Shown here one piece after another: positions 6,817 to 40,575 of a DNA stretch of 40,575 nt (position 1 is the first letter of the stretch; each line of letters starts with the position of its first letter). The notes beneath the pieces are model-generated. The model made no database searches. It had not been told where the DNA came from and saw only the letters and a list, made by a program, of their open reading frames with translations. Origin of the DNA: a virus; the IMG/VR virus record IMGVR_UViG_3300036852_000358, positions 1-40,575 of that record; one strand, given 5' to 3'. A program made the translations under genes and the position numbers.

Positions 6817-6835
6817 GCCCCGATGGTATCACCCC

Positions 6836-6879
6836 GGGTGCAATTTGACCCAGGCCCTGCACAGGCGCAAACTGGGTCA
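6836..6879. promoter_or_regulatory. Palindromic operator and large inverted repeat between divergent genes
   Basis: GGGTGCAATTTGACCC at 6836-6851 resembles the hyphenated palindromes at 8734-8750 and 38439-38454. TGACCCAG (6846-6853) also pairs with CTGGGTCA (6872-6879) across 18 bases. The TTGACC inside reads as a possible -35 toward the plus-strand lysis genes. The gap lies between genes starting at 6816 (minus) and 6879 (plus), so a divergent operator is the natural reading. Confidence 0.6.
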
Positions 6880-8040: not shown

Positions 8041-8276
8041 TGTTGGGAGTGCTCGGCAGGGCGATCTACTGGACGCTCGGCGCCGTCCAGACCGTGGGCG
8101 AGCTCGTCGGCTCAGGGGCGAGACTGGTCAGGCAGATGAGGAAGGGCAAGGTCCCGATCGTCTCCCTCGACGATACCGATCCCATCCCGCTCACTCACCG
8201 GGACGCCGAGCGGATCGCGGAGTTTGGGCGCAATGCGGGGCATGAGCGAGCCAAGCCTCCGCCGCTCAAGCGCTAG
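8040..8276 (+). CDS. Small amphipathic protein, last gene of the lysis cassette
   Basis: 78 residues from ATG 8040, overlapping the endolysin stop (TGATG). The N-terminal 35 residues are hydrophobic and amphipathic (MLGVLGRAIYWTLGAVQTVG), followed by a basic and then an acidic/proline tail. It could be an accessory lysis protein or antiholin. The 3' end overlaps a convergent minus-strand reading frame by 11 bp. No family is recognised. Confidence 0.6.
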   Translation: MLGVLGRAIYWTLGAVQTVGELVGSGARLVRQMRKGKVPIVSLDDTDPIPLTHRDAERIAEFGRNAGHERAKPPPLKR

Positions 8277-8394
8277 TCGGCCGTTTTTTCGCGGATCGGC
8301 GCCGCTCGTAGCGCCGCACCCACCATTGCAGGATGAGGCACGCCCACCACCCCAGCAGCCAACCCGCGCAGAAGTCGGGCCAGATCCATGTCAC
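8266..8394 (-). CDS. Small Trp-rich membrane protein
   Basis: 42 residues from GTG 8394, which overlaps the upstream stop (GTGA) and follows a GAAGGGG ribosome site. A single hydrophobic, Trp-rich segment (FCAGWLLGWWACLILQWW) is followed by a very basic tail (RRYERRRSAKKR), giving a predicted membrane protein with a cytoplasmic basic tail. Small proteins like this can be holin-like. It is convergent with the plus-strand cassette and overlaps it by 11 bp. The short length keeps this tentative. Confidence 0.5.
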   Translation of the reverse strand: MTWIWPDFCAGWLLGWWACLILQWWVRRYERRRSAKKRPTSA

Positions 8395-8582
8395 CCCTTC
8401 CCCTGTCTCCGCGGCGCCCTCGGGTCCGGCTCGGTCCCAAAGACCCGGAGCCACTGAGCGATCTCCGCCTCATACCGGAACAGCTGCAGGTCCCGGGCAC
8501 ACTTGGCGCACAGCGACCAGGGCCTGCAGCGGCAGGAGCCGGGCTCGGGGCGATCTGTCAGGTCGAGGGTAGGGGTGTTCAT
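8391..8582 (-). CDS. Small zinc-ribbon-like protein
   Basis: 63 residues from ATG 8582, behind a GAGG site eight bases upstream. Cysteines in SCRCRPWSLCAKCARD form a zinc-binding knuckle in the middle. The C-terminus is basic (RAPRRQGKG). The stop overlaps the downstream GTG gene. It lies below a 184-bp intergenic region with a large inverted repeat and an operator copy. Function is unknown. It is one of about ten small Cys-rich proteins in the genome. Confidence 0.6.
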   Translation of the reverse strand: MNTPTLDLTDRPEPGSCRCRPWSLCAKCARDLQLFRYEAEIAQWLRVFGTEPDPRAPRRQGKG

Positions 8583-8766
8583 GGTCGTGTCCTCGGGAGG
8601 CCTTGCCCCGCGCGCATGATGCTTCACCGGTAATAACCGCGCACTAGCGGCGTTGGCAGCTGGCACCGGCGCGCGGGCAAGGCCCGCTGAGGTAGCGCCC
8701 CGGACCCGATCAAGCTCGATCGAGCCCGAGGAGCTGGGTCAATTCTGACCATGGGGCGGGTCAGTG
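8583..8766. promoter_or_regulatory. Intergenic region with a large inverted repeat and an operator copy
   Basis: No gene is seen. A near-perfect inverted repeat pairs 8599-8615 with 8669-8684 (arms of 16 bases, one extra base in the left arm), enclosing about 53 bases and the small stem CGGT-AATA-ACCG (8628-8639). A perfect 12-base palindrome GCTCGATCGAGC is at 8714-8725. The shared operator GGTCA-ATTC-TGACC is at 8737-8750 and carries the TGACCCAG octamer on the minus strand at 8741-8734. A terminator plus promoter/operator for the downstream minus genes is the likely reading. Confidence 0.55.
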
Positions 8767-9247: not shown

Positions 9248-9457
9248 CTACCGCCGAGGAGGCCTCTTGCCCATCGCCACGAGTCGCGCCCGCTCCTCTT
9301 TCAACAATCGGCGGATGAGATCCGACACGCTCACGAGCAAGTATTCTGCCAAGGCATCGATCTCCGCGTGCTCCTCTGGGGTGACCCGGGCTCGCACATA
9401 ACTCATTGACAGAGAGGTCGTCCCGATGCGAGCGCCTCCGCGTTTTCTCGTAGTCAC
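9248..9457 (-). CDS. Ribbon-helix-helix DNA-binding regulator
   Basis: 69 residues from ATG 9457. After a basic N-terminus, the segment SYVRARVTPEEHAEIDAL and the helix DLIRRLLKEERARL match the ribbon-helix-helix fold (Arc/CopG type), in which the beta strand VRARV inserts in the major groove. It is divergent from the excisionase/integrase operon across a 462-bp region with several palindromes. It is the best candidate for a lysogeny regulator. No other repressor gene is visible. Confidence 0.7.
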   Translation of the reverse strand: MTTRKRGGARIGTTSLSMSYVRARVTPEEHAEIDALAEYLLVSVSDLIRRLLKEERARLVAMGKRPPRR

Positions 9458-10336: not shown

Positions 10337-10629
10337 GCCAGCCACTGCTTCGTGGCAGCTGCATGGACTACGACGCGATCGTGGCTCGCGCCGTCGAGAT
10401 GGCCCGCAAGAGCCCCGACGAGGTGCGCCGCATGAACCTGAGCCCCCGCGAATCCTGGCAAGTGGCGCTCGCGGCCGCATCCCTCGGGGCGGGCCCCTCC
10501 CGCGAGCTGACCGATGAGCTCTTCGAGGCCGTGCTCGACTTTGGAACGTTGGCTTTTGGCGAGCCCTGTTCCACTTCGGAACCGGCTTGCGTCGCGTCCA
10601 ACGTGGTTCAGCTTCGAGGGAAGATATGA
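10333..10629 (+). CDS. Hypothetical protein before the integrase
   Basis: 98 residues from ATG 10333 (ATGA overlap). Mostly helical and mildly acidic, with a Ser/Pro-rich centre and a C-terminal NVVQLRGKI tail of the kind often seen ending phage regulators. No cysteine cluster, membrane segment or enzyme motif is seen. Overlap on both sides puts it in a tight translational unit with the excisionase-like and integrase genes. Function is unknown. Confidence 0.65.
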   Translation: MSQPLLRGSCMDYDAIVARAVEMARKSPDEVRRMNLSPRESWQVALAAASLGAGPSRELTDELFEAVLDFGTLAFGEPCSTSEPACVASNVVQLRGKI

Positions 10630-12377
10630 CCCTCACTCCCAAGCGCACCGGCTTCGAGATCCGCCTCCGGTTCGGCAAGGGTCAACGCGACCGGTTCACG
10701 CTCTCGACCCTCGACGAGGCCCTGGCGCTCGCGCTCGAGCCGCGCATGGAAGCGATGGCCAAGAGGTTCGCCGACGCCACGAGCGACAAGGCGCGCGAGC
10801 AAGCGCATGGCCTGCTCAAAGAGGCGTGCCTCGTCGCGAGCGATCCGAAGAAATTCGCCGCCGTCGAACGGGTGGTGAGCAAATTGTGTGCGGAGGCGGC
10901 TGCTGACACCCCCCCGGCAGTCGCCTCCGCACCTTCTACGTTCCGGGACGTGGCCGAACTCTGGACGAGCGGCAAGCTCACCGAGCTGTACCCCGACCAC
11001 GACCGCTGCCCGCCAAAGGACGCACAGGCCCGCAAAGAGGACCAGGGGATCGTCTCGACGTTTTTCCCCGCGCTCGGGGCCAAGCCCATCGCCGCCCTGG
11101 CCCACGAGGACATCGACGCTGCCCGCAGGCTCATCCCGAAGGACTTGCACCCCAATACCCGGCGCATCTACGTCGTCAAGCTCCGGTTCGTTCTGCGCCT
11201 GGCCGAGAGCCCGCTGCGCATCGTCGAACGGGCGGTTCAGGTCGACGTGCCCAAGCGCAAACCGAGCAACCTCTTCGGGTATCTCTACCCCCAAGAGGAG
11301 GCGCAGTTGCTCGGGTGCCAGGGCATCCCGCTCGTCTACCGCATGCTCTACGGCTACCTCGCCCGCAACGGCTGCCGCGTCGGCGAGAGCCTCCAGCTCA
11401 CCTGGGACCATATCGATCTCGAGACCGGCGACATTCACATCGACAAGCGCTGGACCAAGACCAGGGTCGCCCGAAAGTGGGTGCTCGACCCGGACGTGCT
11501 CGCGGCGTTCGCGATCTATCACCGCGTCCTCGGCAAACCCGAGGGCCTCGTGTTCACCGGGCGGACCCGCAAGGCCATCCGCGCCGGCACCATCTGGGCG
11601 CGGTTCATCAAAGACCTCCGGGAGGCAGGGGTCACCCGCAAAAGCATCCTCGACGGCGCCGACGGCATCAACCCGATCCGGGTGCATGATCTCCGGGCCT
11701 CGTTCGTGACCCTCTCGCTCCGGGGCAAGCGGGACCTCAAATGGATCATGACCCGCACCGGTCACGAGACGCTCGGGGTGCTCAAGGGCTACGACCGACT
11801 CGTCCAGGATGCCGAGGAGCACCGGTTGGCCACGTGGTTCGATCCCATGGATCGGGCCATCCCCGAGCTGCGCACCACCGCCCTGGGTGGGCCAACTGCT
11901 GGGCCAATGGTGGGCCAACCCACCAAAACGCTCGGTGTTTCTGGCCCATTTCGATCGTTCATCACGGAGCCTCGATCCGAGGAGAGCCAGGCAAAAACCT
12001 CGGGGAAAACGCTAGTCGCTCCTGCTGAAACACCACTTTGGCCCACCTCGGGCCCAGCTGAATTTAAGGGGGTGGGCCAAGTTGGCCCACCCTTGTCCAC
12101 AGAAGTGGAGGTTGTCCCGTCCTCCGTCGGGGGGGTGGGCCAGGTTTTGGACACCTGTCCAGAGGAGCGGAATCCGTCCCCGTCGGCTCCTCCAGAGCCC
12201 GCCGAGAGCGTCGTCGATCGGGCCCTGGCGAGCGCTCTCGCTGCCGCGCAACAGGCCCAGCAATGGGACCTCTGCCAGGAGATCGTCCGGGAGCTCTCCG
12301 AGCGTCGACGGGCCCGGCTGGCCCCGGGCGTGACCTCTCTGAGCGATGCGCGCAAGAAGCGGGAGGAGAAGCCGTGA
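10626..12377 (+). CDS. int: Tyrosine recombinase (integrase) with a long C-terminal extension
   Basis: 583 residues from ATG 10626 (ATGA overlap). Residues about 130-210 look like the SAM-like core-binding domain. The catalytic set is present: Arg251 (NGCRVGESLQLTW), a beta-hairpin Lys (KRWTKTRVARKWV), His354-x-x-Arg357 (HDLR), His380 (TGHETL) and the nucleophile Tyr389 (KGYDRL). The domain ends near residue 400, but the protein continues for about 180 residues of Gly/Pro/Ser-rich and then helical sequence. The extension is encoded by DNA rich in GGTGGGCCAA repeats. The last residues (SLSDARKKR) recur at the end of the next protein. Site-specific integration is the known role of the family. 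Confidence 0.9.
   Translation: MTLTPKRTGFEIRLRFGKGQRDRFTLSTLDEALALALEPRMEAMAKRFADATSDKAREQAHGLLKEACLVASDPKKFAAVERVVSKLCAEAAADTPPAVASAPSTFRDVAELWTSGKLTELYPDHDRCPPKDAQARKEDQGIVSTFFPALGAKPIAALAHEDIDAARRLIPKDLHPNTRRIYVVKLRFVLRLAESPLRIVERAVQVDVPKRKPSNLFGYLYPQEEAQLLGCQGIPLVYRMLYGYLARNGCRVGESLQLTWDHIDLETGDIHIDKRWTKTRVARKWVLDPDVLAAFAIYHRVLGKPEGLVFTGRTRKAIRAGTIWARFIKDLREAGVTRKSILDGADGINPIRVHDLRASFVTLSLRGKRDLKWIMTRTGHETLGVLKGYDRLVQDAEEHRLATWFDPMDRAIPELRTTALGGPTAGPMVGQPTKTLGVSGPFRSFITEPRSEESQAKTSGKTLVAPAETPLWPTSGPAEFKGVGQVGPPLSTEVEVVPSSVGGVGQVLDTCPEERNPSPSAPPEPAESVVDRALASALAAAQQAQQWDLCQEIVRELSERRRARLAPGVTSLSDARKKREEKP
11885..12142. repeat. Cluster of GGTGGGCCAA-type repeats inside the integrase 3' extension
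   Basis: Copies or near copies lie at 11885-11895, 11900-11907, 11909-11918, 12071-12080 and 12134-12142 on the plus strand. On the other strand they lie at 11942-11948, 12038-12047 and 12082-12091; a partial copy is at 12050-12056. 12070-12092 forms a perfect inverted repeat with 11-base arms and one central base. Because the copies occur in both orientations and different codon phases, the conservation is at DNA level. Arm-type integrase sites with attP, or replication iterons, are possible. Confidence 0.6.
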
Positions 12378-13514: not shown

Positions 13515-14338
13515 GCTGGCTCCGCCTCGACGACGACATGCTCGACCACCCCAAGTGGGTCCGGGCCATCCGAGACGGCGGGAGCGCGGCGCTGCACATG
13601 TGGCTCGCCCTGTGCTCGTGGTGTTCGAGGCACCTGACGGACGGGGAGATCCCGGCAGACATCGTCCCGACGCTGACCCAACAGTGGCGCGCTCGTGACC
13701 GAGCCAAAGCCATACAAGCGCTCGAGTCGAGCCAGCTCGTGGCCATCACCGAGCCGGGAGCGATCCACATCGTGGACTATCTGGAGCGCAATCCAAGCCG
13801 AGCCGAGACCCTAGAGCGCCGCAGTCGGAAGGCCGACAACCAAAAGAATCACGCGGTTAGGAAAAAGCTGACCGGTCAGCGTCCAGTGGTGGTGGTCGAC
13901 GACGGACCGGCGCCTGACCCTCTCCCGATCCCGTCCCGTCCCGATCCCGTCCCGACCCCAGAAGAGGGAGAGAGAAACGCGCGCGCGCCCGGTGGTTCAC
14001 CTTCGGAGGTCAGGACCCTGCAGCCGTCGAAACGGGAGCGAGCCCGTGAAGCCGCTGCCGTCGCGCTCACCCGGTTGCGCCACAAGTACCCGCCCGATTT
14101 CGAGCCCACCGTGGACAACCGCTCCCGCGCGGTCGAACTCGGGCTGACCGAAGCCGAGACCTGGCAGCGCTGGGACGAGTGCCGGGACAAGCGCTACCCA
14201 GCGCCCTTCGACGACCCGGTGGGTCAATTCAATCGCGAGCTCGCTTGGGCCAAAGCCGACAAGGAAAAACGCATGTTCAAGACCCAGACCGAGCGCGAAG
14301 CGTTCGAGATGCCGGGGCGGGAGAGGAGACCGGCGTGA
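13511..14338 (+). CDS. Replication-initiator-like protein
   Basis: 275 residues from ATG 13511 (ATGA overlap). The N-terminus (MSWLRLDDDMLDHPKWVRAI) and the helices after it resemble the winged-helix start of phage replisome-organiser/DnaD-type proteins. A Pro-rich linker around residues 137-160 is encoded by tandem CCCGA/CCCGT units. The C-terminal half is helical and basic (ALTRLRHKYPPDFEP). Lambda O carries its origin in the same way, so this gene may hold the phage origin. No helicase or polymerase gene is present, so host replisome recruitment is likely. Function is inferred. Confidence 0.55.
   Translation: MSWLRLDDDMLDHPKWVRAIRDGGSAALHMWLALCSWCSRHLTDGEIPADIVPTLTQQWRARDRAKAIQALESSQLVAITEPGAIHIVDYLERNPSRAETLERRSRKADNQKNHAVRKKLTGQRPVVVVDDGPAPDPLPIPSRPDPVPTPEEGERNARAPGGSPSEVRTLQPSKRERAREAAAVALTRLRHKYPPDFEPTVDNRSRAVELGLTEAETWQRWDECRDKRYPAPFDDPVGQFNRELAWAKADKEKRMFKTQTEREAFEMPGRERRPA
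13924..13955 (+). repeat. Tandem pentamer repeat in the initiator-like gene
   Basis: Two tandem 16-base units (CCCGATCCCGTCCCGT and a copy differing in the last base) are built from CCCGA/CCCGT pentamers. They encode a proline-rich linker. Repeats inside an initiator gene can be origin iterons, as in lambda O, but the unit is short and the protein linker alone could explain it. Confidence 0.4.
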
Positions 14339-14958
14339 GCCCCTACTACTCGCACGCGGGGATCGAGATCTTCCACGGGGACGCCCGAGCGCTGGCCCCG
14401 CTCATGGATGCCGCGGTGCTCAGCCTGGATCCGCCCTACGGCACCAACGAGCACGGCGGCTATGGTCGGCGGCAACTCGGGCTCGAGACCATCGAGAACG
14501 ACGCGGATACTTCCCTCCGTGACGACCTGCTCGCATGGTGGGGCGCTCGGTGCGCGGTCGTCTTTGGCTCCCCGCGTCGACCCGAGCCACCGGGCGAATG
14601 GATGTTCCGCCTCGTGTGGGACAAGCGCTCGCCCGGCATGGGCTCTCCGTGGCGCTGGCAACACGAGATGATCTACCTCCGCGGCGAGTGGCACAACCAG
14701 CCCGGCATCGCCTCGGTGTTGAGCTTCTCCGTTGGTGGAGCGATGCGCGACCGGTGGCACCCGCATGAGAAGCCGATCCCGCTCATGTGCGCGCTGCTCC
14801 AGGGCACGACGGGCAAGATCCTAGACCCGACCATGGGGAGCGGCTCGACGCTCCGCGCTGCCAAAGAGCTAGGCCGTGAAGCGATCGGCATCGAGATCGA
14901 CGAGAAGCGCTGCGAACAAGCGGCGATCCGGCTCTCACAAGAGGTCCTATTCGCATGA
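14335..14958 (+). CDS. DNA methyltransferase, first copy
   Basis: 207 residues from GTG 14335 (GTGA overlap). Motif IV DPPYG is at residues 32-36. The SAM-binding motif (ILDPTMGSGSTLRAAKELGR) follows at about residues 160-180, the beta-class order of amino-methyltransferases. DPPY is typical of N6-adenine or N4-cytosine methylation. Its N-terminus MSPYY and C-terminus QEVLFA recur in the methyltransferase at 17505, as do the start and stop DNA. No endonuclease partner is seen. It may protect phage DNA. Confidence 0.8.
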   Translation: MSPYYSHAGIEIFHGDARALAPLMDAAVLSLDPPYGTNEHGGYGRRQLGLETIENDADTSLRDDLLAWWGARCAVVFGSPRRPEPPGEWMFRLVWDKRSPGMGSPWRWQHEMIYLRGEWHNQPGIASVLSFSVGGAMRDRWHPHEKPIPLMCALLQGTTGKILDPTMGSGSTLRAAKELGREAIGIEIDEKRCEQAAIRLSQEVLFA

Positions 14959-15308
14959 CCGACGAAGAACTCGAGGCCTCCCTCGCCTCCCGTCCCCGCC
15001 CTCCCGCTCCACCGATGAAGACCCGCCCCGTGAGCGAGATCCTTGGCTGCTCGGATGACCACGCACTCGCAATCGCCAAGAGCAAGGGCCTCATCGACAG
15101 GGACAACATGCTGCATTGCTGGCACTGCAAGGCGATCTGTGACTGGCACGTGAGCCTCCACTGCTTCGATTGCCGAGCAGGAGCCCCAGCGCGCAAGCGG
15201 GAACGTGAGCAGCAGGAGCGCGAGCGCGCAGCGGCAGAGCGGCGGGAACAGGAACAATCGCGGCCCGTGCAGAGGGTCGGCGGGAGGAGTTTTCGCGATG
15301 GGTACTAG
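14955..15308 (+). CDS. Zinc-finger and coiled-coil protein (unknown)
   Basis: 117 residues from ATG 14955 (ATGA overlap). The centre has a Cys/His cluster (CWHCKAICDWHVSLHCFDC) consistent with zinc binding. The C-terminus is a highly charged coiled coil (REREQQERERAAAERREQEQ). It overlaps the queC start by 11 bp. No enzyme motif. Function is unknown. Confidence 0.6.
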   Translation: MTDEELEASLASRPRPPAPPMKTRPVSEILGCSDDHALAIAKSKGLIDRDNMLHCWHCKAICDWHVSLHCFDCRAGAPARKREREQQERERAAAERREQEQSRPVQRVGGRSFRDGY

Positions 15309-15927
15309 ATCGCTGGTTCTGCTCTCCGGTGGGCTCGATTCCGTCGCCGCCCTCCTGCTAGAGACCAAGTGGGGCGCAGACAACGTAGAGGCGGTATTCT
15401 TTCGCTACGGGCAACCGATGGCCGCGCGCGAGTTCGCTTCCGCGCGCCGGGCCTGTGAAGCGTTATCCGTGACGTTGCACATGCGGAACCTGGAGCCCGT
15501 CTTTCATGCGTTCACGGCGGGACTCATGGCCTCACCGGCGAGCGGCAAAGACGACTCCGGAAAGGACACGGCGTTTTTGCCGGGCAGGAACGCGGTTCTT
15601 ATCGCCGTGGCCGCGAGCATGGCCGACCAGTCCTGGCGCGAAGGAGCCTCTCTCATTGTCGGATTCAATCGCGGCGACGCGAGCGGCTTTCCGGACTGTC
15701 GAGCGGAATTCTGTGGGCTACTCGAGGACTCGCTTCGGTCAGGCGGGTCGAGTGTTCGCATTCGTGCCCCCTGGGTGAAGCACACGAAACGCGCGATCGT
15801 CGAGTGGGTGCGGCGGGAGACCCCGACGGGGATCGCGCTGCTGGAGCAAAGCTGGTCCTGCTACTCGGGATCGGGCCCGTGCGGGGTCTGTACCGCGTGC
15901 TTGAGTCGAGCGGATGCGCTCGCGTGA
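15298..15927 (+). CDS. queC: QueC, 7-cyano-7-deazaguanine (preQ0) synthase
   Basis: 209 residues from ATG 15298, behind a GGAGGAG site. The PP-loop ATP site SGGLDS is at residues 10-15. The C-terminal zinc cysteines are Cys188, Cys195, Cys198 and Cys201 (CYSGSGPCGVCTAC). QueC converts 7-carboxy-7-deazaguanine to preQ0 using ATP and ammonia. FolE, QueD and QueE are not seen in this genome, so the precursor probably comes from the host. It is directly followed by DpdA, with a GTGA overlap, so the product is most likely used on DNA. Phage queC-dpdA pairs are known to make deazaguanine-modified genomes. Confidence 0.9.
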   Translation: MGTRSLVLLSGGLDSVAALLLETKWGADNVEAVFFRYGQPMAAREFASARRACEALSVTLHMRNLEPVFHAFTAGLMASPASGKDDSGKDTAFLPGRNAVLIAVAASMADQSWREGASLIVGFNRGDASGFPDCRAEFCGLLEDSLRSGGSSVRIRAPWVKHTKRAIVEWVRRETPTGIALLEQSWSCYSGSGPCGVCTACLSRADALA

Positions 15928-17335: not shown

Positions 17336-17508
17336 TGACCGCTCACCCGCGCACCGCGCATCCACCCGGGAGCAAGACCCAGTGCAAGCGCTGCCCGCGC
17401 GTGTTCAGGCGGAGGCGCGGCCGACGCTTCTGCATGGTCTGCTCCGGCTATCGGATCCCGAAGCGTCTACGCGACGAGCTCGCGCGCAATCCGAGGGAGA
17501 CGCCGTGA
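17335..17508 (+). CDS. Small zinc-ribbon protein
   Basis: 57 residues from ATG 17335, overlapping the previous stop (TGATG). CKRC and CMVC (about 17 residues apart) form a zinc ribbon within a very basic stretch (VFRRRRGRRF). It is coupled to the second methyltransferase by a GTGA overlap. DNA or RNA binding is likely. Function is unknown. Confidence 0.6.
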   Translation: MTAHPRTAHPPGSKTQCKRCPRVFRRRRGRRFCMVCSGYRIPKRLRDELARNPRETP

Positions 17509-18191
17509 GCCCCTACTACGACCACGGCGGGATCACCCTCTATCTCGGCGACTGCAGAGAGATCCTTCCCACCTTGGGCAAGTTCGATCTGCTGCTCACA
17601 GACCCGCCATACGACTTCGGGCACTACGCAACGGACACCAAGCCCTCGATCGCTCTCATCATGGAGAGTGCCCCAACGGCTGCACTGTGGGGATATCCCG
17701 AGGTTCTCTGCGGGTGGTGCATCGAGATCGGGCGCGCGCCCGACGAGTGGATCACCTGGTGGCCCACGAACGCTGCCGCCAAGACGGGAGGGAGACACGC
17801 CAACGTGCCGCGCCAGGTGGAGACGGTGGCCATCTTCGGGAACCGGCTGTTTGCCGATCTGGTGCGCGAGCCACGCGCCCGCGGAGTGATTCTCGGCAAA
17901 GAACTCTCGGAAACTGTGCGCGCCTCGGATGTGTGGCGCGACGCCAGCCCTGGAATCGGGTTCAACGCGCGCGAGCGCCTCCACCCAAACGAGAAGCCCG
18001 TTTCCGTCATGGGGAAGTTACTCGATCTATGCGCTGCACCCGGCGCCACCGTCGTCGACCCCTACATGGGCTCGGGCCCCGTCGCCAAGGCATGCAAGGA
18101 TCGCGGGCTGCGATACGTCGGGATCGAGCTGGTCGAGAAGTATTGCGAGATCGCCGCCAAGCGCCTGGCCCAAGAGGTCCTCTTCGCATGA
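17505..18191 (+). CDS. DNA methyltransferase, second copy
   Basis: 228 residues from GTG 17505 (GTGA overlap). Motif IV DPPY is at residues 33-36, and the SAM motif (VVDPYMGSGPVAKACKDRG) near residues 185-205. MSPYY at the start and QEVLFA at the end match the first methyltransferase, as does the start/stop DNA, so the two are paralogs. The middle differs, so the recognition sequence may differ. No cognate endonuclease is seen. Confidence 0.8.
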   Translation: MSPYYDHGGITLYLGDCREILPTLGKFDLLLTDPPYDFGHYATDTKPSIALIMESAPTAALWGYPEVLCGWCIEIGRAPDEWITWWPTNAAAKTGGRHANVPRQVETVAIFGNRLFADLVREPRARGVILGKELSETVRASDVWRDASPGIGFNARERLHPNEKPVSVMGKLLDLCAAPGATVVDPYMGSGPVAKACKDRGLRYVGIELVEKYCEIAAKRLAQEVLFA

Positions 18192-23748: not shown

Positions 23749-25155
23749 TCACCCCTGCTGCTTCATCCAGCGGACCCGCTCCTCCCAGCGTTTTTTGCTC
23801 TCGCGCTCCTCCCACTCCATGGTCCCTGGCATCGGTTCGCTCTCGGATTCGCTGATGTGGGCCATGAGATACTCGAGCGCGTACAGGCCACCATCGAGGC
23901 AGTGGTCCTGGTACCTCTCGTGGTGGTCGTCCTTATCGTCGTTCCAGGGCGTGACCCGGGCCTCGTCCTGCCAGGGCTTGGTTTCCTCGTAGGTGACGAT
24001 CGTTTGGTTCGAGAGCATCGACCCGAACATCCAGATACGGTCTTTTTTGAAGCCCGCTTTTTTAGCGGCCACGATCGGCAGCTGGTAGACGCGTTGCAGG
24101 TCCGCGATCGACTGGGCTCCTCCGCCGGACGAGTCGCCCACGATGACGTTCGGATGGAAGCGGGTCCCGAGCATCTTGGTATGTGCCGAGACCTGCTCGG
24201 TCGTCATGCCCGCTTGCTTGTAGGCGTGGAGCATATGGATCTTGTGCATCGTGAAGATGCGGCTCTTGTCCTCGCTCGCGGCCCGTTCGGTAGTGAGCCG
24301 GAACACGACCCAGGCGTTCGGCTGGTGCTGGCCGAAGTCGACACCCATCACCGTCCAGCCGTGCTCGGGGGCGGCCCGCTGGGGGAACACGACGCCGTTC
24401 CAGCCGCCGTAGGGTAAGGCCTCGGTGTCGGGGCAGAACTCGCCCAGGTACTCGCGCCGGAACTCCGGCGTGCGCTCGGTCCAGCCGAGCTTTCGGTTAT
24501 CGTAGAGGACCTGCCGCAGGTAGGCCACGGCATCGGGAATGTGCGGGTTGTCCCGGACGGTCGCGAAATGTACGTTGGCCCCCGTCTCCCCAAGGCAGAC
24601 CCCATGCCAGTAGGTTTTGACGTTCTTGGACGGCGTGCCGATCATCGAGAGGCCCCGTCCACCGCGTCTCCACCAACGCATGAGAGCGGGCCGCGCGCAG
24701 GCGTCCGCGGTGTAGCTCAAGAGCTCGTCCCGGTAGGTGCCGCACTCCTCGATGCTGATCTCCGGCGGGGTGAAGCCACGGATCTTCTCCGCCTCGGCCA
24801 GGGTGGAGAGTCCGAGGAGCTGGACGATGCCGCCGTTCGGCATCACCAACTGGCTATCTGCCAGGCGCAGTTCGATCTTGGCGTCGTGCTCGCGGTTCAG
24901 CCGTTCGCAGATCGGCCATAGGAGATCGCGCGCCTTGTGAATGGTCGGGGCGAGGGCTAACGACGTGGTCCCGCTGATCGCGTTGCGCTTTTTGCTGACC
25001 CCGTTCCAGAAGGATTTGCCCCATTGACGGCTCCCGCACACCGCCCGGAGATGGTGCCGATCGTTCTCGATCTGCTGCTGCTTCGGGGTGAGCAGCGACA
25101 GGAGACTCGACCCCTGCCTAGCCTTCTGACAGTGGACGCGGCTCCTGCTGAGCAT
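23749..25155 (-). CDS. terL: Terminase large subunit
   Basis: 468 residues from ATG 25155, behind AGAGGAG. Walker A GSRQWGKS is at residues 41-48. The Walker B region reads ISIEECGTY, with Glu136/Glu137 where an Asp-Glu pair is more usual. The C-terminal RNase H-like nuclease has MGVDFGQ, VGDSSGGG and DHCLDGGLYA acidic blocks. It packages DNA into the prohead. It is the last gene of the late run, convergent with the early operon. The small subunit is not recognised. Confidence 0.85.
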   Translation of the reverse strand: MLSRSRVHCQKARQGSSLLSLLTPKQQQIENDRHHLRAVCGSRQWGKSFWNGVSKKRNAISGTTSLALAPTIHKARDLLWPICERLNREHDAKIELRLADSQLVMPNGGIVQLLGLSTLAEAEKIRGFTPPEISIEECGTYRDELLSYTADACARPALMRWWRRGGRGLSMIGTPSKNVKTYWHGVCLGETGANVHFATVRDNPHIPDAVAYLRQVLYDNRKLGWTERTPEFRREYLGEFCPDTEALPYGGWNGVVFPQRAAPEHGWTVMGVDFGQHQPNAWVVFRLTTERAASEDKSRIFTMHKIHMLHAYKQAGMTTEQVSAHTKMLGTRFHPNVIVGDSSGGGAQSIADLQRVYQLPIVAAKKAGFKKDRIWMFGSMLSNQTIVTYEETKPWQDEARVTPWNDDKDDHHERYQDHCLDGGLYALEYLMAHISESESEPMPGTMEWEERESKKRWEERVRWMKQQG

Positions 25156-25654
25156 CGCTCCTCTGGTAGCCCTTCTCCCTCAGAATGGCGTCGAGCTCGG
25201 CGGACGGATTGTCGAGCTCGTCGGCGTGGAACCAACGGGTCCTTCTCAGAGCGTCTCGGAGTTCCTGGTTGGGGTCCAAGTAGGTCTGATCGAGCGCGAG
25301 TTCCTCCACCCGTGGGGAGGCGAGAAGCGTCGTGATCGCCAGGGGATTGCCGCATGGCCAGCGGGTGTCGAACCATTTCCAGAGGGGCCCGACGTTGGCC
25401 TTGGCGCCCGGCAGACAGAGTGCCTCGATGACCCCGAAGATCTTCCGGGCGTACGCGGCGTCTCGCCTGCAGTATTCCTGGGTGAAGTCCCGCAGGTTGG
25501 GTGTGTCGTCTCCCGCTGCAGCGCCCCTCTCGAGCCAGTCCCGGAGCTCGCCGATCGTGTGCCCACACGCGTACGCCACCAGCTCGTGATACGGGTACTG
25601 ATCGCAGGCCAGGCAGAGCGCCGTGCTCGTCTCGACGTCGATGTCCTCAACCAT
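25118..25654 (-). CDS. Protein of the packaging module (unknown)
   Basis: 178 residues from ATG 25654; it overlaps the GroES-like gene by 8 bp and TerL by 38 bp. It is helical with several cysteines (ALCLACDQYPYHELVAYACGH) and aromatic patches (LWKWFDTRW). Its place just before TerL makes a small-terminase or packaging-accessory role conceivable, but no HTH is visible. Function is unknown. Confidence 0.5.
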   Translation of the reverse strand: MVEDIDVETSTALCLACDQYPYHELVAYACGHTIGELRDWLERGAAAGDDTPNLRDFTQEYCRRDAAYARKIFGVIEALCLPGAKANVGPLWKWFDTRWPCGNPLAITTLLASPRVEELALDQTYLDPNQELRDALRRTRWFHADELDNPSAELDAILREKGYQRSDAQQEPRPLSEG

Positions 25655-26492
25655 CGAAGCCCGTGATGAAATCCTGCCAGGGGCTCACCGTGAAGACTTG
25701 CCCGTGCAGGCGAAAGCGCGCCCGGTCGTTGGCCGAGGAAAAGCCGATCATCGTGCCCTCGGTGATCTGGTTCTCGACGAACACCCACTTTTTCCGCGGG
25801 CCAAACAGGCGCTCATCCCACAACGCCTTCACCCACCGGCCATTGCCAGCGGAGACCACGCGCTCGACCATCATGCGATCGGCCGAACCCACCGCGCTGC
25901 CCGACTTGGCGTTGCGACTCGTGGCCTGCTTGCAGGTCGGGCACCGGTGGGGTCCGGGTAACTCATGCACGCGGGTGACGATGCCCCAGGCGAGCTCCTC
26001 ATCGGTGAGCGGGGTCTGCCGGTTCAGGGCCCTCTGAGCGCCTTCGGGGTCCACCCGGGTAAGGATCTGGTCCGAGAGCGGTTCGGGCATGCCGCCCGCG
26101 CCGTTCGGGTGCCGGAGGCTGATGCCGTGCTCGTGGACCAGGTAGTAGGTGACGCTCTTGTCGGGATCGTAGAGTTCCCGGGAGATCCGGTTGCGCTTGT
26201 AGCTCACGAGATCGCCCACCTCGAGGCCGGGACGGTCCTGGGCGAGCTCCGGACGTCCGGGGCCAATCGCGACCACCTCCCCGAAGGTGAGGCTGTCCGG
26301 GTGGCTCTTGTAGTCCGCGCTGAAGGCGGCCAGGTGATGTAGCGGGATGAACCCCACCGTATTGGCCTGGGCCACGATCTTGGCCTGCTCGGGGGAAAGT
26401 TCCCCGTGGGTGAGCTTGAGCGTCGTGGTCTCTTCGGCGAGCTCGGGGCGGGGCAGGATCCAGACGTAGTCCCGAAGCGGCAGGAGCCTCAC
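25647..26492 (-). CDS. GroES/Cpn10-like co-chaperonin with extra domain
   Basis: 281 residues from ATG 26492, with a GTGA-type overlap with the scaffold stop. Residues 1-130 follow the Cpn10 layout: RLLPLRDYVWIL at the start, GEVVAIGPGRPE, GLEVGDLVSYKRN, then YYLVHEHGISLR. The segment between (residues about 25-60) is longer than a normal mobile loop. A CPTC knuckle near residue 190 and a C-terminal extension follow. Phage co-chaperonins such as T4 gp31 help fold the capsid with host GroEL. That role is inferred from motif order and from its position beside scaffold. Confidence 0.6.
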   Translation of the reverse strand: MRLLPLRDYVWILPRPELAEETTTLKLTHGELSPEQAKIVAQANTVGFIPLHHLAAFSADYKSHPDSLTFGEVVAIGPGRPELAQDRPGLEVGDLVSYKRNRISRELYDPDKSVTYYLVHEHGISLRHPNGAGGMPEPLSDQILTRVDPEGAQRALNRQTPLTDEELAWGIVTRVHELPGPHRCPTCKQATSRNAKSGSAVGSADRMMVERVVSAGNGRWVKALWDERLFGPRKKWVFVENQITEGTMIGFSSANDRARFRLHGQVFTVSPWQDFITGFDG

Positions 26493-34337: not shown

Positions 34338-35425
34338 GCGAGTGGCTTCCAGCCGAGGCTACCGGCGGCACCCAAGGCCTTCTCACCCGCACCGAGGAAG
34401 CCCATGACGTAGTCCATCACGCCTTTCTTGTTGGCCTCGGCCGCAGCCTTGATTTGGCCCGCGACCTGCTGGTCGATGTGATGGCTCTGGGCAATCTGAT
34501 CGAAGATGTCCATCTGCGTTTTGATGTCGAGAGAGGCGTAGTTGAACCCGAGCTGGTTGATGTCGTTGATCATCCCGCCGAGCAACTGTTGTCCCTGAAG
34601 GTCGGCGTTGATCTGCATGCCGGTGTCGGCGATGACCCGATCGATGGCTTGCAATCCGATCTGCGCGGTGTCGGTAGCGAGGCCCGCCTCTTGCCCGAAG
34701 GCCCCCGTCGCGGTCTGACCGATGGTGTTGGCGATACCTCCCGAGGTCTGCGCCTGCTGAATACGGGCCTGGAACATCTGCAGCTCTTCGTTGCGCGCCT
34801 GCTCCGCCGCTTGCCCGGCAATGGCAGGGGTCTGGTCGACGACCATGCCCCGGGCCGCGGCGACCGCTCCCGCTCCGCCCCGAGCGTTGGCTGCCAGGGT
34901 ATTGCCCATGGCCAGACCTCGCTCCTGGTAGCGCTGTTGCAAGGCCTGCTGCTCGACGGGATCGATCTTCAGGTTCATCGACTGCTCGAGCACCCGGCGC
35001 TGATCGGCTAGGGCTTGGTCTCGGGCGGCGCGAGCCTGGTCTGTTTGCGAGGTGTCGACCGTCGGAAGGGTCTGGCCCTGGACTTGCCCTGGCGTCTGGT
35101 TGGCGCGCGCCTTGTCGTACGCTCCGGTAGGGTCGAGCCGCGGGTCTAAAGCGGGCGCGTTGTTCGCGTAGTTCGTCCCGGCTGCCGCGAGCGATTGTCC
35201 CGCTGCCCACTGGTCGTACGCGCTCTGCTGCCCCGAGGGGATGACCCACGATTGCGTGCCCCGGTTCCACGCCCACCCGGGCCAACCGTCAGGCTTTGGC
35301 GTATCGGCCATGGCTTGGTCGTTGGCCGCGTTTGCGGTGGCGGCTTGCTGGGCGTCGTTGTACGGGTTGCTCGTCGCCTGACCCGTCGCCGGGTTGATTT
35401 CGTTTCCTGCTCTGTCAACGGCCAT
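34334..35425 (-). CDS. Internal virion protein (Ala/Gln-rich)
   Basis: 363 residues from ATG 35425, overlapping the upstream stop (TGATG); the longer open frame above it is not used. The start (MAVDRAGNEINPATGQATSN) is polar, then Ala/Gln-rich helices (VEQQALQQRYQERGLAMGNT) and a Gly-rich C-terminus (MGFLGAGEKALGAAGSLGW). One of three consecutive ejection-type proteins. Function inferred from composition and order. Confidence 0.6.
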   Translation of the reverse strand: MAVDRAGNEINPATGQATSNPYNDAQQAATANAANDQAMADTPKPDGWPGWAWNRGTQSWVIPSGQQSAYDQWAAGQSLAAAGTNYANNAPALDPRLDPTGAYDKARANQTPGQVQGQTLPTVDTSQTDQARAARDQALADQRRVLEQSMNLKIDPVEQQALQQRYQERGLAMGNTLAANARGGAGAVAAARGMVVDQTPAIAGQAAEQARNEELQMFQARIQQAQTSGGIANTIGQTATGAFGQEAGLATDTAQIGLQAIDRVIADTGMQINADLQGQQLLGGMINDINQLGFNYASLDIKTQMDIFDQIAQSHHIDQQVAGQIKAAAEANKKGVMDYVMGFLGAGEKALGAAGSLGWKPLA

Positions 35426-38406
35426 CAGTGCGTATCCCTTGCTGGCAAGCGCGCCATGCCGGGCGCCGTCGTGGTCTCTAAGGTGATCTCGTTGATGCGA
35501 ATGCCCTCGGTGCCGGACCCGCCGGTGACGTTGAACCGCAAGCCAAAGCGCGAGCACTCCCGGAGCGGCGGGGCCTTTTCGAGATTGACGGCCGCATTGG
35601 CCACGTAGTTGTTCGCCGTGGTGAGCGTGAAGGTCTCGATCGTCGTGTAGTTCAGGCCCGAATCGAAGGTGATATCGAGCGTGGCTGTGCAGTCGGCGAT
35701 CTTGGTGCCGACGACGCCGACTTTGACGATCTCGCCCCAACTCATGCCCGTGCCGAAATCGAAGTCGAACGTCTCGAAGCTCTGGTTCGGCATCGCCCCC
35801 GTCCCGGGGGTGGCGTGCTGCTGGAAGACCGCTCCCGCGCTGTCCACGTAGCAGAGCCGCCCCTGGTACTCGGCCAGGGCCTTGGCGTAGACGTCGTCGA
35901 TGAACCACGCCTTGCGCCGGAGGTCATAGACCAGGACCTCGCCTGCGTTCGCTGCCGCGTTCTCCACCGCGAAGGCCACGGCGTTCTGCTTGCGGAGGTA
36001 ACAGCTCGCCAAGACCACGGGGTAGGTCACGAGCTCGTCCCGGATCGCTTGCCCCACGGTCCAGTCGACTTCCCCGCGCTCGCCGAGAAAGCACAGTTGC
36101 TCGTCGTCTCGTTGGAAAAAGATCCCAGCATCGGTCTCACACAGGCTCTTCCAGCCGTCGACGCCGTTGATGCCACCTTCGCGCGAGAGAAAGCCCGAGA
36201 AGGTGAATTCCCCCTGGCCCGAATGGTCAGGGCCTGTCCCGGTCCAGAGCGAGATGGTCCGGCGGGTGAAGGCGACGAGCTGGCCCCCGATCGAGGCCAC
36301 GGCCAGGATCGCCTCATCGGTCGAGCCCTGGTACTGCGGCAGATCCGCATCGGAGAAGTGGGTGGCTTCCGCCGGGAACTTCAGCTTGCTCTGCAGCCAC
36401 TGGTTCGTGCGCGGGAGTCCGCCGATGGCTAGGCGCTCGTTCGTCGCCCAGAGGTAGGAGGCGGGAGGCGGGGCCTGGTGCGGGATCGGGGTCTGGCCCT
36501 GGGTGTAGATCGTCCCTTGGGTCTCGCCGAGCGTGCGCAGAGCCGCGTCGGAAGTGGTGAGCGTAAACGAGATGGCCGCGCCCCAGTTGCTCGAGCTCGA
36601 CGGGCAAGGGATGTGCGTTTCGCGGTACAGGTTCTCGCCTGCGGTCTTGTCCGCGAGAGCCGCCGTGCGACAGATCACGATCCGGTAGGTCGAGCCGTCC
36701 CAGAAGCCAGAATTGCGAAAGCTATGCAGGCCCCCGATGGTCCCGGTGATGGTGTCGTCCGCGGCACCGGTGGTGATCGAGTAGACGATCGACGGCGGGC
36801 CCCGGTGCACGTTGCCGCGCGCATCGACCATCTCGGGGAAGACCTGAATGAAGTAAGCGGCCGAGCTCGTGATCGCCCCGGGCGCCGTGTTACTCGAGGC
36901 GAGGGAGTAGACGATCGGCTTTTCCCCCCAGCTGATCTCGAACGGGAACCGCCCGTCGAAGATCAGAGGCAATGAGCCGGCGATGTGCAACAGGCCTCCC
37001 TGTACGGCGGCTTGCCGGCGCTCGGCCACGCCGTAACTCCACTCGGCGACGGCCGCGGTGCACTCGAGGTCGTTGTTCTGCCGCAGGCTGGTCGAGTAGA
37101 AATACCCCGAGACGCTATCGCGGGTGAGGCTGCCGATTCTGCCCGGGAATTCGAACGCGGTATCGAAGTCCCGGAACCAGACGGGGTAGCTCTGGACGTC
37201 TTGCACGCCCATGCCACTCACGCCGAAGGCAAAGCTTTGGGTTCCTTGCGAAAACCCGGCAAAAACGAGGTTGATCGGCGCGATACTCGTGCAGAGCATC
37301 TCGGTCGCCAGTTGCAGATCGCTCCAAGTGGCGGTGTCGACTTGGGTCCCGACGAACACGGCCTTGCGCGGGGTAGTGCTGGTGATGTTGCCGGCCACGG
37401 TCACGCCTCCACCGCTGTCGACGAACACCGTGATGGCCCCCGTCGTGGCGGTTGCGCTCAGCGTGGTGGGCCCGGCGATATCGGTCCCGGCGGTGAGAGA
37501 GATCGTCTTGTACTTGAGCAGCGAGTCGGCGTTGTCGAGGTAGCCGATGAGGATCACGTTGGCCGTGCTGTCCGCGGCCACGGTCAGGTAATTGGGCACG
37601 GTCGCGTTGATCGTGCGGGTCATCTGCTGGACGTTGCTATCGTTGAAGTGCTTGACGAGGATATCGCCCGCCAAGCAGTACACGACCACGTAGCCACCCG
37701 TCGCGCCCGCGACCGCGCACGCGGCGAACACGGTCTTATCGGTGGTGAGCGAGAGCAGCGCGGTCGAAAAGGCCTGGTCCGTCGAGGCCGTAAACGAGCA
37801 GGCCTGAATCAACAGACCCGTCCCCGCGTCGAGCCCGAAGACGTAGAACTTGTGCCCCACCGTGACCAGCGCCACCGCTGCGCCGGTCAACGGGAGGTGC
37901 TCGAACACGAGCGTCGCATCGTCTCGGGTGCGAAAGACGAGCGCGTACACCAGACCCACGGTCGCGCTGGTCACCGAGTAGGCGTGCACGGCGATGCCGT
38001 TGTAGACGGCGACGGTCGAGGTCTTGACGCCGCCGCTCTGGTCGGGAGGCGAGCCGATCTCCCGGAGCCGGGTGCCGCTCGGCAGATGCGTCGAGGTCTC
38101 CTTCCAGCCCTTCACCTCGCCCACGTACTCGAAGAGCGTGATGCGGTTGGCGGTGCCGGCACCACTCAGGTGCCCGAGCGCAAACAGGCGATCGTCATAG
38201 GAGAGCAAGTCATGGGCAACGAGCGTGCTCGAGCCTGCTGCATACACGCCTGTCGCCAACGCCGTGAACCCGGGCCTGACCCCGAGCTCGTTGTCCCGCC
38301 TCAGGCGGAGGTTGACGACCCGCCGCAAGAGTCCTTCTGTAGGCAGAAGCTTTCTCGCGGCCTGCTGGTTCGTCCCGCCGTCGAGGCGAAAGCGCGTGAG
38401 GGCCAT
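35425..38406 (-). CDS. Tail hub/nozzle-like beta-propeller protein
   Basis: 993 residues from ATG 38406, behind AGGGGA; the TTG at 38445 is less likely and would overlap the operator. The start (MALTRFRLDGGTNQQAAR) and VVNLRLRRDNELGVRPGFTA match large phage tail proteins with a beta-propeller, such as T7-type nozzle or stabilisation proteins. The middle contains repeating Thr/Val beta segments (ATVPNYLTVAADSTANVILI). It is in the right place for the tail of a short-tailed phage. The promoter candidate upstream contains the shared palindrome. Confidence 0.6.
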   Translation of the reverse strand: MALTRFRLDGGTNQQAARKLLPTEGLLRRVVNLRLRRDNELGVRPGFTALATGVYAAGSSTLVAHDLLSYDDRLFALGHLSGAGTANRITLFEYVGEVKGWKETSTHLPSGTRLREIGSPPDQSGGVKTSTVAVYNGIAVHAYSVTSATVGLVYALVFRTRDDATLVFEHLPLTGAAVALVTVGHKFYVFGLDAGTGLLIQACSFTASTDQAFSTALLSLTTDKTVFAACAVAGATGGYVVVYCLAGDILVKHFNDSNVQQMTRTINATVPNYLTVAADSTANVILIGYLDNADSLLKYKTISLTAGTDIAGPTTLSATATTGAITVFVDSGGGVTVAGNITSTTPRKAVFVGTQVDTATWSDLQLATEMLCTSIAPINLVFAGFSQGTQSFAFGVSGMGVQDVQSYPVWFRDFDTAFEFPGRIGSLTRDSVSGYFYSTSLRQNNDLECTAAVAEWSYGVAERRQAAVQGGLLHIAGSLPLIFDGRFPFEISWGEKPIVYSLASSNTAPGAITSSAAYFIQVFPEMVDARGNVHRGPPSIVYSITTGAADDTITGTIGGLHSFRNSGFWDGSTYRIVICRTAALADKTAGENLYRETHIPCPSSSSNWGAAISFTLTTSDAALRTLGETQGTIYTQGQTPIPHQAPPPASYLWATNERLAIGGLPRTNQWLQSKLKFPAEATHFSDADLPQYQGSTDEAILAVASIGGQLVAFTRRTISLWTGTGPDHSGQGEFTFSGFLSREGGINGVDGWKSLCETDAGIFFQRDDEQLCFLGERGEVDWTVGQAIRDELVTYPVVLASCYLRKQNAVAFAVENAAANAGEVLVYDLRRKAWFIDDVYAKALAEYQGRLCYVDSAGAVFQQHATPGTGAMPNQSFETFDFDFGTGMSWGEIVKVGVVGTKIADCTATLDITFDSGLNYTTIETFTLTTANNYVANAAVNLEKAPPLRECSRFGLRFNVTGGSGTEGIRINEITLETTTAPGMARLPARDTH

Positions 38407-38438: not shown

Positions 38439-38456
38439 GGGTCAAATATGACCCAG
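38439..38456. promoter_or_regulatory. Palindromic operator between divergent tail and moron genes
   Basis: GGGTCA-AATA-TGACCC (38439-38454) with the extended octamer TGACCCAG (38449-38456). The site lies between genes starting at 38406 (minus) and 38512 (plus). In the minus direction TTGACC reads as a -35, with TAGGCT 17 bases later and an AGGGG site before the tail gene. This is the best-formed promoter candidate of the three operator sites. Confidence 0.6.
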
Positions 38457-38511: not shown

Positions 38512-38997
38512 ATGAGAGCGATGCTCCTGGGCCTGCTGCTCGCCGCGTGCGCGACCGAGACCGAGACCGCGCCGGTCACCGACACTGCCTCACATGTGTT
38601 CGTGGTGGAGGGCGAGCTCGCCGACGCCGCGAGCCAGGCCGTGGAGCTCTGGACGAGCGCGAGCGGGGGAGAATTCGCGCCCGTCCTCGTCGCGGGGCAG
38701 GCCCCGGGCATCCAGATCCGCTTGGTCGATGCCGTCGACGACTGCGGTGCGACTGGCGAGCTTTTCGGGTGCTGGAAGGGCCACGACCAGGTCATCGAGA
38801 TCGCGCGCACGCTGGCCCCCGAGCTCCGGGCCTCGACCATTGCTCACGAGATCGGTCACCACCTCGGTCTCGAGCACGCCCAAGGGGGCGACGTGCTGAT
38901 GGACCCGCACCGTTCCAGGTTTCACCGCTTGGCCCCGTGTGTCAGCCGCGAAGACGTCGAGGCCGCTGGCTTCGAAGGGATCGGGGCGTGCCTGTGA
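38512..38997 (+). CDS. Lipoprotein zinc metalloprotease (metzincin-type), moron
   Basis: 161 residues if ATG 38512 is used; ATG 38494 and 38521 are alternatives. MRAMLLGLLLAAC is a lipoprotein signal with Cys13. Residues 112-122 read HEIGHHLGLEH, the HExxHxxGxxH zinc site of metzincins, followed by a Met-turn (VLMDP, Met130). A Cys pair is at 78 and 87. It stands on the opposite strand to the late genes, between fibre and tail genes. Lysogenic conversion or self-protection are possible roles. The substrate is unknown. Confidence 0.75.
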   Translation: MRAMLLGLLLAACATETETAPVTDTASHVFVVEGELADAASQAVELWTSASGGEFAPVLVAGQAPGIQIRLVDAVDDCGATGELFGCWKGHDQVIEIARTLAPELRASTIAHEIGHHLGLEHAQGGDVLMDPHRSRFHRLAPCVSREDVEAAGFEGIGACL

Positions 38998-39233
38998 AGG
39001 CCCTGGCCGCGCTACTGGTCGTGCTCTCGGTTGCCGTCCCTGCCCATGCGGAAGGCCGCACGCTGCTCGTCGCGATCGACATGGTGACCGGGGTGGTCCG
39101 GGGTCTGTGCAACCTGGAGTCGGAAGCGGTCTGCCTTGGTGCGGTCCGAATCAACCAGCCCTTGGGCTCCGCGGCGCGTCACCGCTATCAGGTGAGGACG
39201 GGCGAGCGTCTCGAGTGCCGCGTGCCGAAGTAA
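38994..39233 (+). CDS. Small exported protein, partner of the metalloprotease
   Basis: 79 residues from GTG 38994 (GTGA overlap). KALAALLVVLSVAVPAHA is a classical signal peptide with cleavage after AHA. The mature part is about 60 residues with three cysteines (GLCNLESEAVCLG, ERLECRVPK). Coupling to the protease suggests an inhibitor, substrate or co-exported partner. No family is recognised. Confidence 0.6.
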   Translation: MKALAALLVVLSVAVPAHAEGRTLLVAIDMVTGVVRGLCNLESEAVCLGAVRINQPLGSAARHRYQVRTGERLECRVPK

Positions 39234-39236
39234 CCC

Positions 39237-39255
39237 CCCGGGGGTGACCCCCGGG
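39237..39255 (+). terminator. GC-rich stem after the exported-protein unit
   Basis: CCCGGGGG (39237-39244) and CCCCCGGG (39248-39255) form a perfect 8-bp stem with a 3-base loop, starting 3 bp after the stop. No T run follows, so a classical intrinsic terminator is not fully met. A longer pair TAGGCCC/GGGCCTA spans about 39305-39361 before the minus-strand genes, so the segment may be a two-sided terminator region. Confidence 0.5.
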
Positions 39256-39357: not shown

Positions 39358-39465
39358 CTAGCCTTGTGCGGGCAGATTGAAGCGCCCCGTCTTGCGGAGC
39401 GGGTGCAGAAGGTCCCGCTGCTCCTGGTCCTGGTCGAGCTGGGCCAGCCGAGCGGTGTCCTTCAC
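39358..39465 (-). CDS. Very small hydrophilic protein (unknown)
   Basis: 35 residues from GTG 39465, overlapping the membrane protein's stop (GTGA). Mostly charged (ARLAQLDQDQEQRDLLHP), with an RKTGRFNLPAQG end. The overlap and composition suggest a real coupled gene, perhaps a lysis-partner fragment. Too short to assign. Confidence 0.4.
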   Translation of the reverse strand: MKDTARLAQLDQDQEQRDLLHPLRKTGRFNLPAQG

Positions 39466-39728
39466 GGCTTGAGCTCGGACTCGCTCTCGGTATCCTCGAC
39501 CAAGTCTCTGAGCCTCCGCGGCTGCTCGCGCAGAAAAGTCTCGAAGGCTGTCCTCCACGTCTCGCTGACTGAGCGCAAATCGCGCTGCTGCTGTCTTGCC
39601 ACAAGCTCGCGCGAGTAGCGTCTCTGTCGGTAGAGCAGCCAAATAGCGATCAGTAAGCAGCAGCCACCCAAGAGCCTTTCGTAAAGCTGATGGTGGACGA
39701 GGCTCAGCAATGGGTTCTCCGGATTCAT
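39462..39728 (-). CDS. Small membrane protein with coiled coil
   Basis: 88 residues from ATG 39728, between the fibre stop and the moron. A single membrane segment (LLGGCCLLIAIWLLY) follows a short polar N-terminus, then a basic turn and a coiled coil (QQQRDLRSVSETWRT). This is the layout of inner-membrane spanins or accessory holins. It is on the late strand, away from the endolysin cassette. Function inferred. Confidence 0.6.
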   Translation of the reverse strand: MNPENPLLSLVHHQLYERLLGGCCLLIAIWLLYRQRRYSRELVARQQQRDLRSVSETWRTAFETFLREQPRRLRDLVEDTESESELKP

Positions 39729-39795
39729 GGTTCATCGTCTTCTCTCTCCCGATCCCGATTCGTTGTCGTACCCGTCCCCGTACGAGGCAGGGGCC

Positions 39796-40575
39796 TCACG
39801 CGGGCAAGCCCATGACGATGATAACCGCATCGCCGCCGTTTCCGCCCTTGCCGGACGTGGCCGCGTTCGTTCCGCCGAAGGACGAACAGGCCCCGCCGCC
39901 GCCGCCGCCTCCGCCGGGGAATCCGCCCGCGCCGCCCGCGCCCGAGGTCGAGGTGCCGTTGCTGCTACTGGTGCGATTGGAGCCCGTTCCGCCACCGCCG
40001 CCCGAGCCGGCGTGATCCATCGTGCCGATAGCACCGTCTGCGCCTGGGTTACTGGTTCCGTTGCCAGCACCGGTACCACCTAGCCCGCCGAGCCCGGATT
40101 GTGCGGTCGCGACCAGCGCGGTCGTGGACGGGCCTGAAAGGCCCCCGTTGCCGCCAGATGCGGCGTTGGTCGCGGGAACCCCGTTGCTACACCCGCCGCC
40201 CGCGCCTCCGCCTCCGCCGCCACGCAGCGCCCGTCCCCCCGCGCGCCCGGTCGTGGTGGCGGACGTGCGGTTCGGGGCTCCGGAACCGCCCCCATCGCAC
40301 GCGGCCATGCCGTCGACTGACGTATTGGCGTTGGCCCCGCCAAAGCCATTTTGGACCAAAGTAGAATTGGTGGTGTCGAGGGAAGGGGTTCCACCCAGCG
40401 CATTAGCCACATTGGTAGCCACGGCGCCCACCCCAGGCCCTTGCACGCCGCCGCCGCTGCCGCCGCATGTCACGCCCTGCACAGCTGTCATGCCGTTACC
40501 GCCGCCGCCGCCGAAGGCCACGAGCAGCGAGCCGAACGACGTAGTCCCGCCATTGGCGCCCACGTTTGGACGCAA
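39796..40575 (-). CDS. Collagen-like, glycine-rich tail fibre protein, C-terminal part (joins 1..985)
   Basis: This is residues 287-545 of the gene starting at 985, counting through the join. The sequence is dominated by Gly/Ala/Ser/Asn runs (GGRALRGGGGGGAGGG, FPGGGGGGGGACSS), with Cys at intervals, and ends in GGDAVIIVMGLPA, a hydrophobic strand end typical of glycine-sandwich fibre tips. The frame has no start of its own at the window edge and is open across it. Receptor binding at the distal end is likely. Confidence 0.8.
   Translation of the reverse strand: MRPNVGANGGTTSFGSLLVAFGGGGGNGMTAVQGVTCGGSGGGVQGPGVGAVATNVANALGGTPSLDTTNSTLVQNGFGGANANTSVDGMAACDGGGSGAPNRTSATTTGRAGGRALRGGGGGGAGGGCSNGVPATNAASGGNGGLSGPSTTALVATAQSGLGGLGGTGAGNGTSNPGADGAIGTMDHAGSGGGGGTGSNRTSSSNGTSTSGAGGAGGFPGGGGGGGGACSSFGGTNAATSGKGGNGGDAVIIVMGLPA
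40449..40575. repeat. Terminal direct repeat, right copy (circular-join overlap)
   Basis: Exact copy of bases 1-127. Removing one copy gives a 40,448-bp circle in which the fibre gene is intact. Confidence 0.95.

Follow-up and report, generated by a model that had tools for sequence, protein, structure and literature searches.

The window, the whole stretch of 40,575 nucleotides analysed here (IMG/VR record IMGVR_UViG_3300036852_000358), holds a complete temperate phage genome of 40,448 bp. A direct terminal repeat of 127 bp, found at 1–127 and again at 40449–40575, indicates that the genome is complete and circularly represented. An integrase is encoded at 10626–12377 and TerL at 23749–25155. 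By TerL and by a 666-aa late protein the nearest known phages are only distant Providencia phages, or none, and a TerL search of bacterial genomes gave no match. The early region carries QueC (E 6e-38; 15298–15927, + strand) as well as DNA methylase genes at 14335–14958 and 17505–18191, so that deazaguanine or another DNA modification is possible. A late gene at 25647–26492 (−) has a weak GroES-like match (phrog_3188, 2e-4), and a ribbon-helix-helix (Arc/NikA-like) protein encoded at 9248–9457 (−), adjoining a 463-bp gap, is a candidate lysogeny regulator.

Among the leftward late genes lies a cassette of two genes that is read rightward. Its features, and those elsewhere in the genome with which it is compared, are:

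35425–38406, − strand: large late tail-type gene, 993 aa, 74% identical in the related contig L006
38433–38462, + strand: upstream element with the palindrome GGGTCAAATATGACCC (38439–38454)
38512–38997, + strand: ORF of a predicted lipoprotein matrixin-type metalloprotease, 161 aa; Pfam Peptidase_M10; homolog at the matching site in the related contig
38512–38550, + strand: protease signal peptide and lipobox, MRAMLLGLLLAA followed by Cys, read from the sequence; the Cys column is invariant across 14 exported phage metzincins
38845–38877, + strand: protease zinc site HEIGHHLGLEH, aa 112–122, likewise from the sequence; motif invariant in the aligned set
38899–38901, + strand: protease Met130 in the Met-turn VLMDP, which pairs with ALMYP of MMP-1 in the family profile
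38994–39233, + strand: putative exported partner, 79 aa, signal peptide with three Cys after it; GTGA overlap; coding support weaker
39237–39255, no strand assigned: GC-rich inverted repeat between convergent transcription units, perfect 9-bp arms
6830–6859, + strand: copy related to that element, immediately before the lysis cassette; 23 of 28 bases agree over 6832–6859
6879–8276, + strand: lysis cassette of a small lipoprotein-like ORF, a holin-like ORF, a CHAP endolysin (7453–8040) and a small ORF
8727–8754, − strand: third, weaker copy of the element, facing the small gene 8391–8582 (−)

The gene map confirms that the cassette lies on the strand opposite to the neighbouring late genes, as an earlier note on this DNA had stated. 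It is divergent from the 993-aa tail-type gene and convergent with small ORFs at 39358–39735, and the lysis cassette is the sole other rightward late block. The status of the protease cassette as an independent transcription unit within a temperate phage genome is supported. An 88-aa ORF at 39462–39728 (−), with one membrane helix and a charged tail and perhaps i-spanin-like, overlaps the longer, codon-poor ORF 39358–39735. Beyond it, a Gly-rich fibre-like ORF of 545 aa spans the record ends, running from 985 down to 1 and then from 40448 down to 39796.

The protease begins with MRAMLLGLLLAAC, a short Sec signal with the lipobox LAAC (LLLAAC) and Ala at +2. From this lipobox the protein is probably lipidated at Cys13 and held in the envelope, most likely at the outer membrane. 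After a linker come a strand, a helix with AVELW, further strands, HEIGHHLGLEH, VLMDP and a final helix CVSREDVEAAGF, an order of elements that reads as metzincin-like. The zinc motif, Met-turn and lipobox from which the earlier note had proposed a phage-encoded surface metalloprotease are all present in the ORF. A single copy of HExxHxxGxxH is found when the window is translated in all six frames, and 100 random sequences matched to it in dinucleotide composition contain none. The GC content by codon position (0.73/0.49/0.86) and the codon score indicate that the ORF is coding. A pro-domain with a Cys switch is absent from the sequence, with only about 14 residues from Cys13 to the first strand; such a pro-domain is usual in animal MMPs and is not required of bacterial ones.

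To which metzincin family does the protease belong? The family search proposed by the earlier note points to the matrixins (M10). Pfam Peptidase_M10 (PF00413) matches the protease at 25.1 bits against a cut-off of 24, a small margin, and the L006 homolog scores 17.5, below the cut-off. A motif scan of viral contigs (HExGHxxGLxH) found 120 loci, of which many encode small lipoproteins or exported proteins, and a family profile was built from 14 aligned exported phage metzincins, the window protease included. All 14 have in common the lipid Cys, a Trp in helix A and the zinc motif. Their profile matches MMP-1 over its catalytic domain (E 2.3e-12, profile positions 27–187 of 200) in an alignment that spans helix A, the Met-turn and the last helix, and on account of this match we classify the protease, by sequence, as a lipid-anchored matrixin (an M10-type metzincin) without a pro-domain. 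The AlphaFold model from a two-sequence alignment is poor (pLDDT 51); its element order fits a metzincin, and its best fold matches are MMPs and snapalysin, none below E 0.001. Animal enzymes of this build cut connective tissue. Members such as MMP-1 and the bacterial karilysin (MEROPS M10A; PF00413) have HExxHxxGxxH, the Met-turn, the helix-A Trp and the C-terminal helix in common with the phage protease, which differs from them in being very small, devoid of pro-domain and Cys switch, lipid-anchored and phage-encoded. The phrog_87 'metallo-protease' and M78/IrrE proteins resemble it in the HExxH helix (weak match, 1.6e-4) but are of a different family.

The partner ORF starts at a GTG at 38994, the final two bases of which are the first two of the protease TGA stop (GTGA). 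It corresponds to the translationally coupled signal-peptide protein with three cysteines that the earlier note had described. Its codon-position GC and codon score are positive, below those of the protease. No relatives of the partner were found in the searches and no Pfam family matched it. The single-sequence model is poor and all helical (pLDDT 62), as against the OB fold expected of a TIMP-like protein.

Contig L006 (IMGVR_UViG_3300048900_000016) is the single related contig that covers the locus; the other two TerL relatives are fragments in which no match was seen, and the locus comparison rests on L006. At the same place and on the same strand it encodes a 190-aa lipoprotein protease, 32% identical to the 161-aa protease, that keeps a zinc site (HELGHSLGLEH) and also has LMSHRS. 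Because this lipoprotein protease is syntenic, the gene is a resident of the phage lineage, one diverging much faster than the neighbouring tail gene, which is 74% identical. The partner gene is absent from the protease locus of L006, and for this reason the partner is optional in the phage group. The notion of protease and partner as a pair, to be sought in other prophages, therefore holds only in part: the two are coupled here and the protease recurs at the same site in L006, but there it stands without its partner. Close relatives of the protease were not found by tblastn or back-translation in phage, plasmid, viral and bacterial collections, the scan of the bacterial genome collection being one that detects only close relatives. 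The sole viral tblastn match, in contig L002, was rejected as a relative, as it is an M78-like protein without a signal peptide.

The 105-bp leader of the protease carries the palindrome GGGTCA-AATA-TGACCC at 38439–38454, a putative operator that bears out the 'operator side' ascribed to the cassette. On the same strand, the genome matches this leader best at 6830–6859, the leader of the lysis cassette, in the same orientation; on the other strand the best match is 8727–8754, upstream of the small leftward gene. Copies of the palindrome stand at 38439, 8736 and 6836, where 0.08 matches would be expected. A relaxed scan (two mismatches or fewer) gave 19 matches with 14 expected, and since this is near expectation only the strongest copies carry weight. 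All three copies of the element are intergenic, in a genome with an estimated intergenic share of about 5%. The common sequence, which has TGACCCAG on one side, is asymmetric; its orientation is toward the protease in one leader and toward the lysis genes in the other. The match score is not extreme, as one of 60 random regions scored higher and one came within 0.2. This score alone is unexceptional, but the intergenic placement of both best matches is exceptional. The palindrome sits between divergent genes, and could serve the tail operon only. At the corresponding site L006 has a different palindrome, TGATAA-N7-TTATCA, as would be expected if the cognate regulator differs. A sigma-70-like promoter was not found at the protease cassette, and an Rfam search gave no match. 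The GC stem that had been noticed after the cassette is there, with its perfect 9-bp arms and −19.8 kcal/mol, but with a z of −1.3 and no T-run it is at most a candidate terminator.

Exported matrixins are also found within lysis cassettes in viral contigs unrelated to the window phage. In contig L120 (5268–7246) a Phage_lysozyme gene is followed by a lipoprotein matrixin and then by a TM/coiled protein, and its close relative L103 has the same gene order where covered (422–1641). In contig L100 (2120–3629) a holin-like gene precedes an exported matrixin, whose gene overlaps the start of the M15-type endolysin that follows. When the neighbours of 48 exported viral metzincins were examined blind, lysis families were not in general excess.

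Listeria already offers examples of phage-linked metzincins that promote lysis. The Mtz-Tim pair, a metzincin and a TIMP-like protein of phage origin, lies downstream of the holin-lysin genes of prophages and increases both phage lysis and the release of virions about 5-fold, while induction is not raised; the lysis effect is seen only with an active protease (PMC8235301). Compared by arrangement, the two systems are alike in that an exported partner lacking a promoter of its own comes after a phage-linked exported metzincin, in one unit. They differ in that the lipoprotein here is the protease and not the partner, the partner is a different one and is dispensable in L006, and the host of the window phage is probably double-membraned.

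What, then, might the protease do? Our tentative preference is for a late-expressed protease of the outer membrane or envelope that assists lysis or virion release, a reading that draws on the shared upstream element, the matrixins inside the lysis cassettes of L120 and L100, and Listeria Mtz-Tim. Under it, a small matrixin would leave the cytoplasm through Sec, receive its lipid at Cys13 and stay attached to the envelope, most likely at the outer membrane. As it has no pro-domain, folding with zinc is predicted to suffice for its activity. The co-translated partner, exported and with three Cys, may be a regulator, an inhibitor or a first substrate. Expression would most likely be switched on in the lytic phase, because the upstream region has an oriented element in common with the lysis cassette. 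The protease would then cut envelope or surface proteins and so help the cell to burst or new virions to get away, for instance by loosening the anchoring of the outer membrane or by stripping receptors from debris. Several points speak against a lysis role. The lysis cassette is already equipped with an endolysin and a small lipoprotein-like ORF, the L006 palindrome differs, lysis genes are not in general excess near exported metzincins and the element score is not extreme; in addition, the palindrome could belong to the tail operon and the AlphaFold model, at pLDDT 51, is poor.

A less likely but serious alternative is a lysogenic-conversion moron, in which the prophage expresses a protease that trims proteins or receptors on the host surface, so that the lysogen excludes superinfecting phage or gains a new surface property. 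The phage is temperate and has an integrase, the cassette stands alone on the opposite strand between late operons, and the protease diverges fast compared with its neighbour (32% versus 74% identity), as surface-acting accessory genes do. Precedent is provided by Bor and Cor of lambdoid phages, lipoprotein morons encoded, like the protease, by lone genes among late genes; these lack a protease domain and exert their effect in the lysogen, whereas the protease has an upstream element common to lysis genes. That element, in the same orientation at the lysis cassette, and the homologs inside the lysis cassettes of other contigs argue against the proposal of the earlier note that the protease acts in the lysogen and alters its surface. 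The separate promoter of a moron was not seen either, and in place of a T-run terminator there are only the palindrome and the GC stem. Capture of a host accessory gene, of nutritional or predatory use to the host and of little use to the phage, is decidedly unlikely. Bacterial genomes are rich in matrixin-type proteases, with M10 over the cut-off in 5 of 14 control genomes, and the protease codon score (0.24 versus 0.34–0.45) falls below that of most late genes; yet the diverged L006 retains the gene, zinc site intact, at the corresponding position, and the gene has no match in the bacterial genome collection, where the scan finds close relatives only.

The order, coupling and export of the two genes agree with a strict Mtz-Tim-like module of protease with inhibitor or substrate, the partner being a TIMP-like inhibitor, and secreted (non-lipoprotein) forms of Tim are reported in other Firmicutes. 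Such a module is nevertheless very unlikely here, as the partner has no detectable relatives, its poor model is all-helical and not an OB fold, and it is missing in L006. Most improbable is a role of the protease in the virion or its assembly, connected with the tail gene or the adjoining Gly-rich fibre. The cassette does have the large tail gene on one side and the fibre gene on the other, and the exported metzincins of contigs L105 and L123 also adjoin tail or structural genes, but the lipobox and signal peptide direct the protein out of the cytoplasm, where virions assemble, and the strand is opposite to that of the late genes.

The usual account of how double-membraned bacteria are lysed names holin, endolysin and spanin. 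The protease resembles the outer-membrane spanins (Rz1-type lipoproteins) in being a small phage-encoded lipoprotein with a proposed action at the outer membrane during lysis. It was rejected as an o-spanin since it has an enzyme domain and no overlapping i-spanin gene; it would cut, not fuse membranes. A wider proposition concerns phages of double-membraned hosts: some of them would rely on a matrixin, anchored in the outer membrane, as a lysis factor that acts by proteolysis, either replacing the spanins with a cutting enzyme or assisting them, sometimes with a co-translated regulator. We consider this unlikely; under it the window cassette would be one case and the lysis cassettes of L120/L103 and L100 would be others. 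No description of a lipid-anchored matrixin in a temperate phage, tied to lysis genes by a shared element, was found in the open-access literature. If the lysis reading is true, a lipid-anchored outer-membrane protease would constitute a further class of lysis or release factor, the Listeria Mtz-Tim observation would extend to other phages, and a set of unnamed exported metzincins in viral contigs would gain a function.

Other arrangements of these genes were seen in the viral contigs. Two lipoprotein metzincins are encoded in tandem, overlapping, at 5488–6679 of contig L122. In two related arrangements (L013, 2336–3487; L123, 7478–8716) a lipoprotein matrixin ends a run of large structural-type genes and is found near a 55–56 aa protein with a single membrane helix; in L013 the matrixin comes directly after that protein and is followed by a small exported Cys protein.
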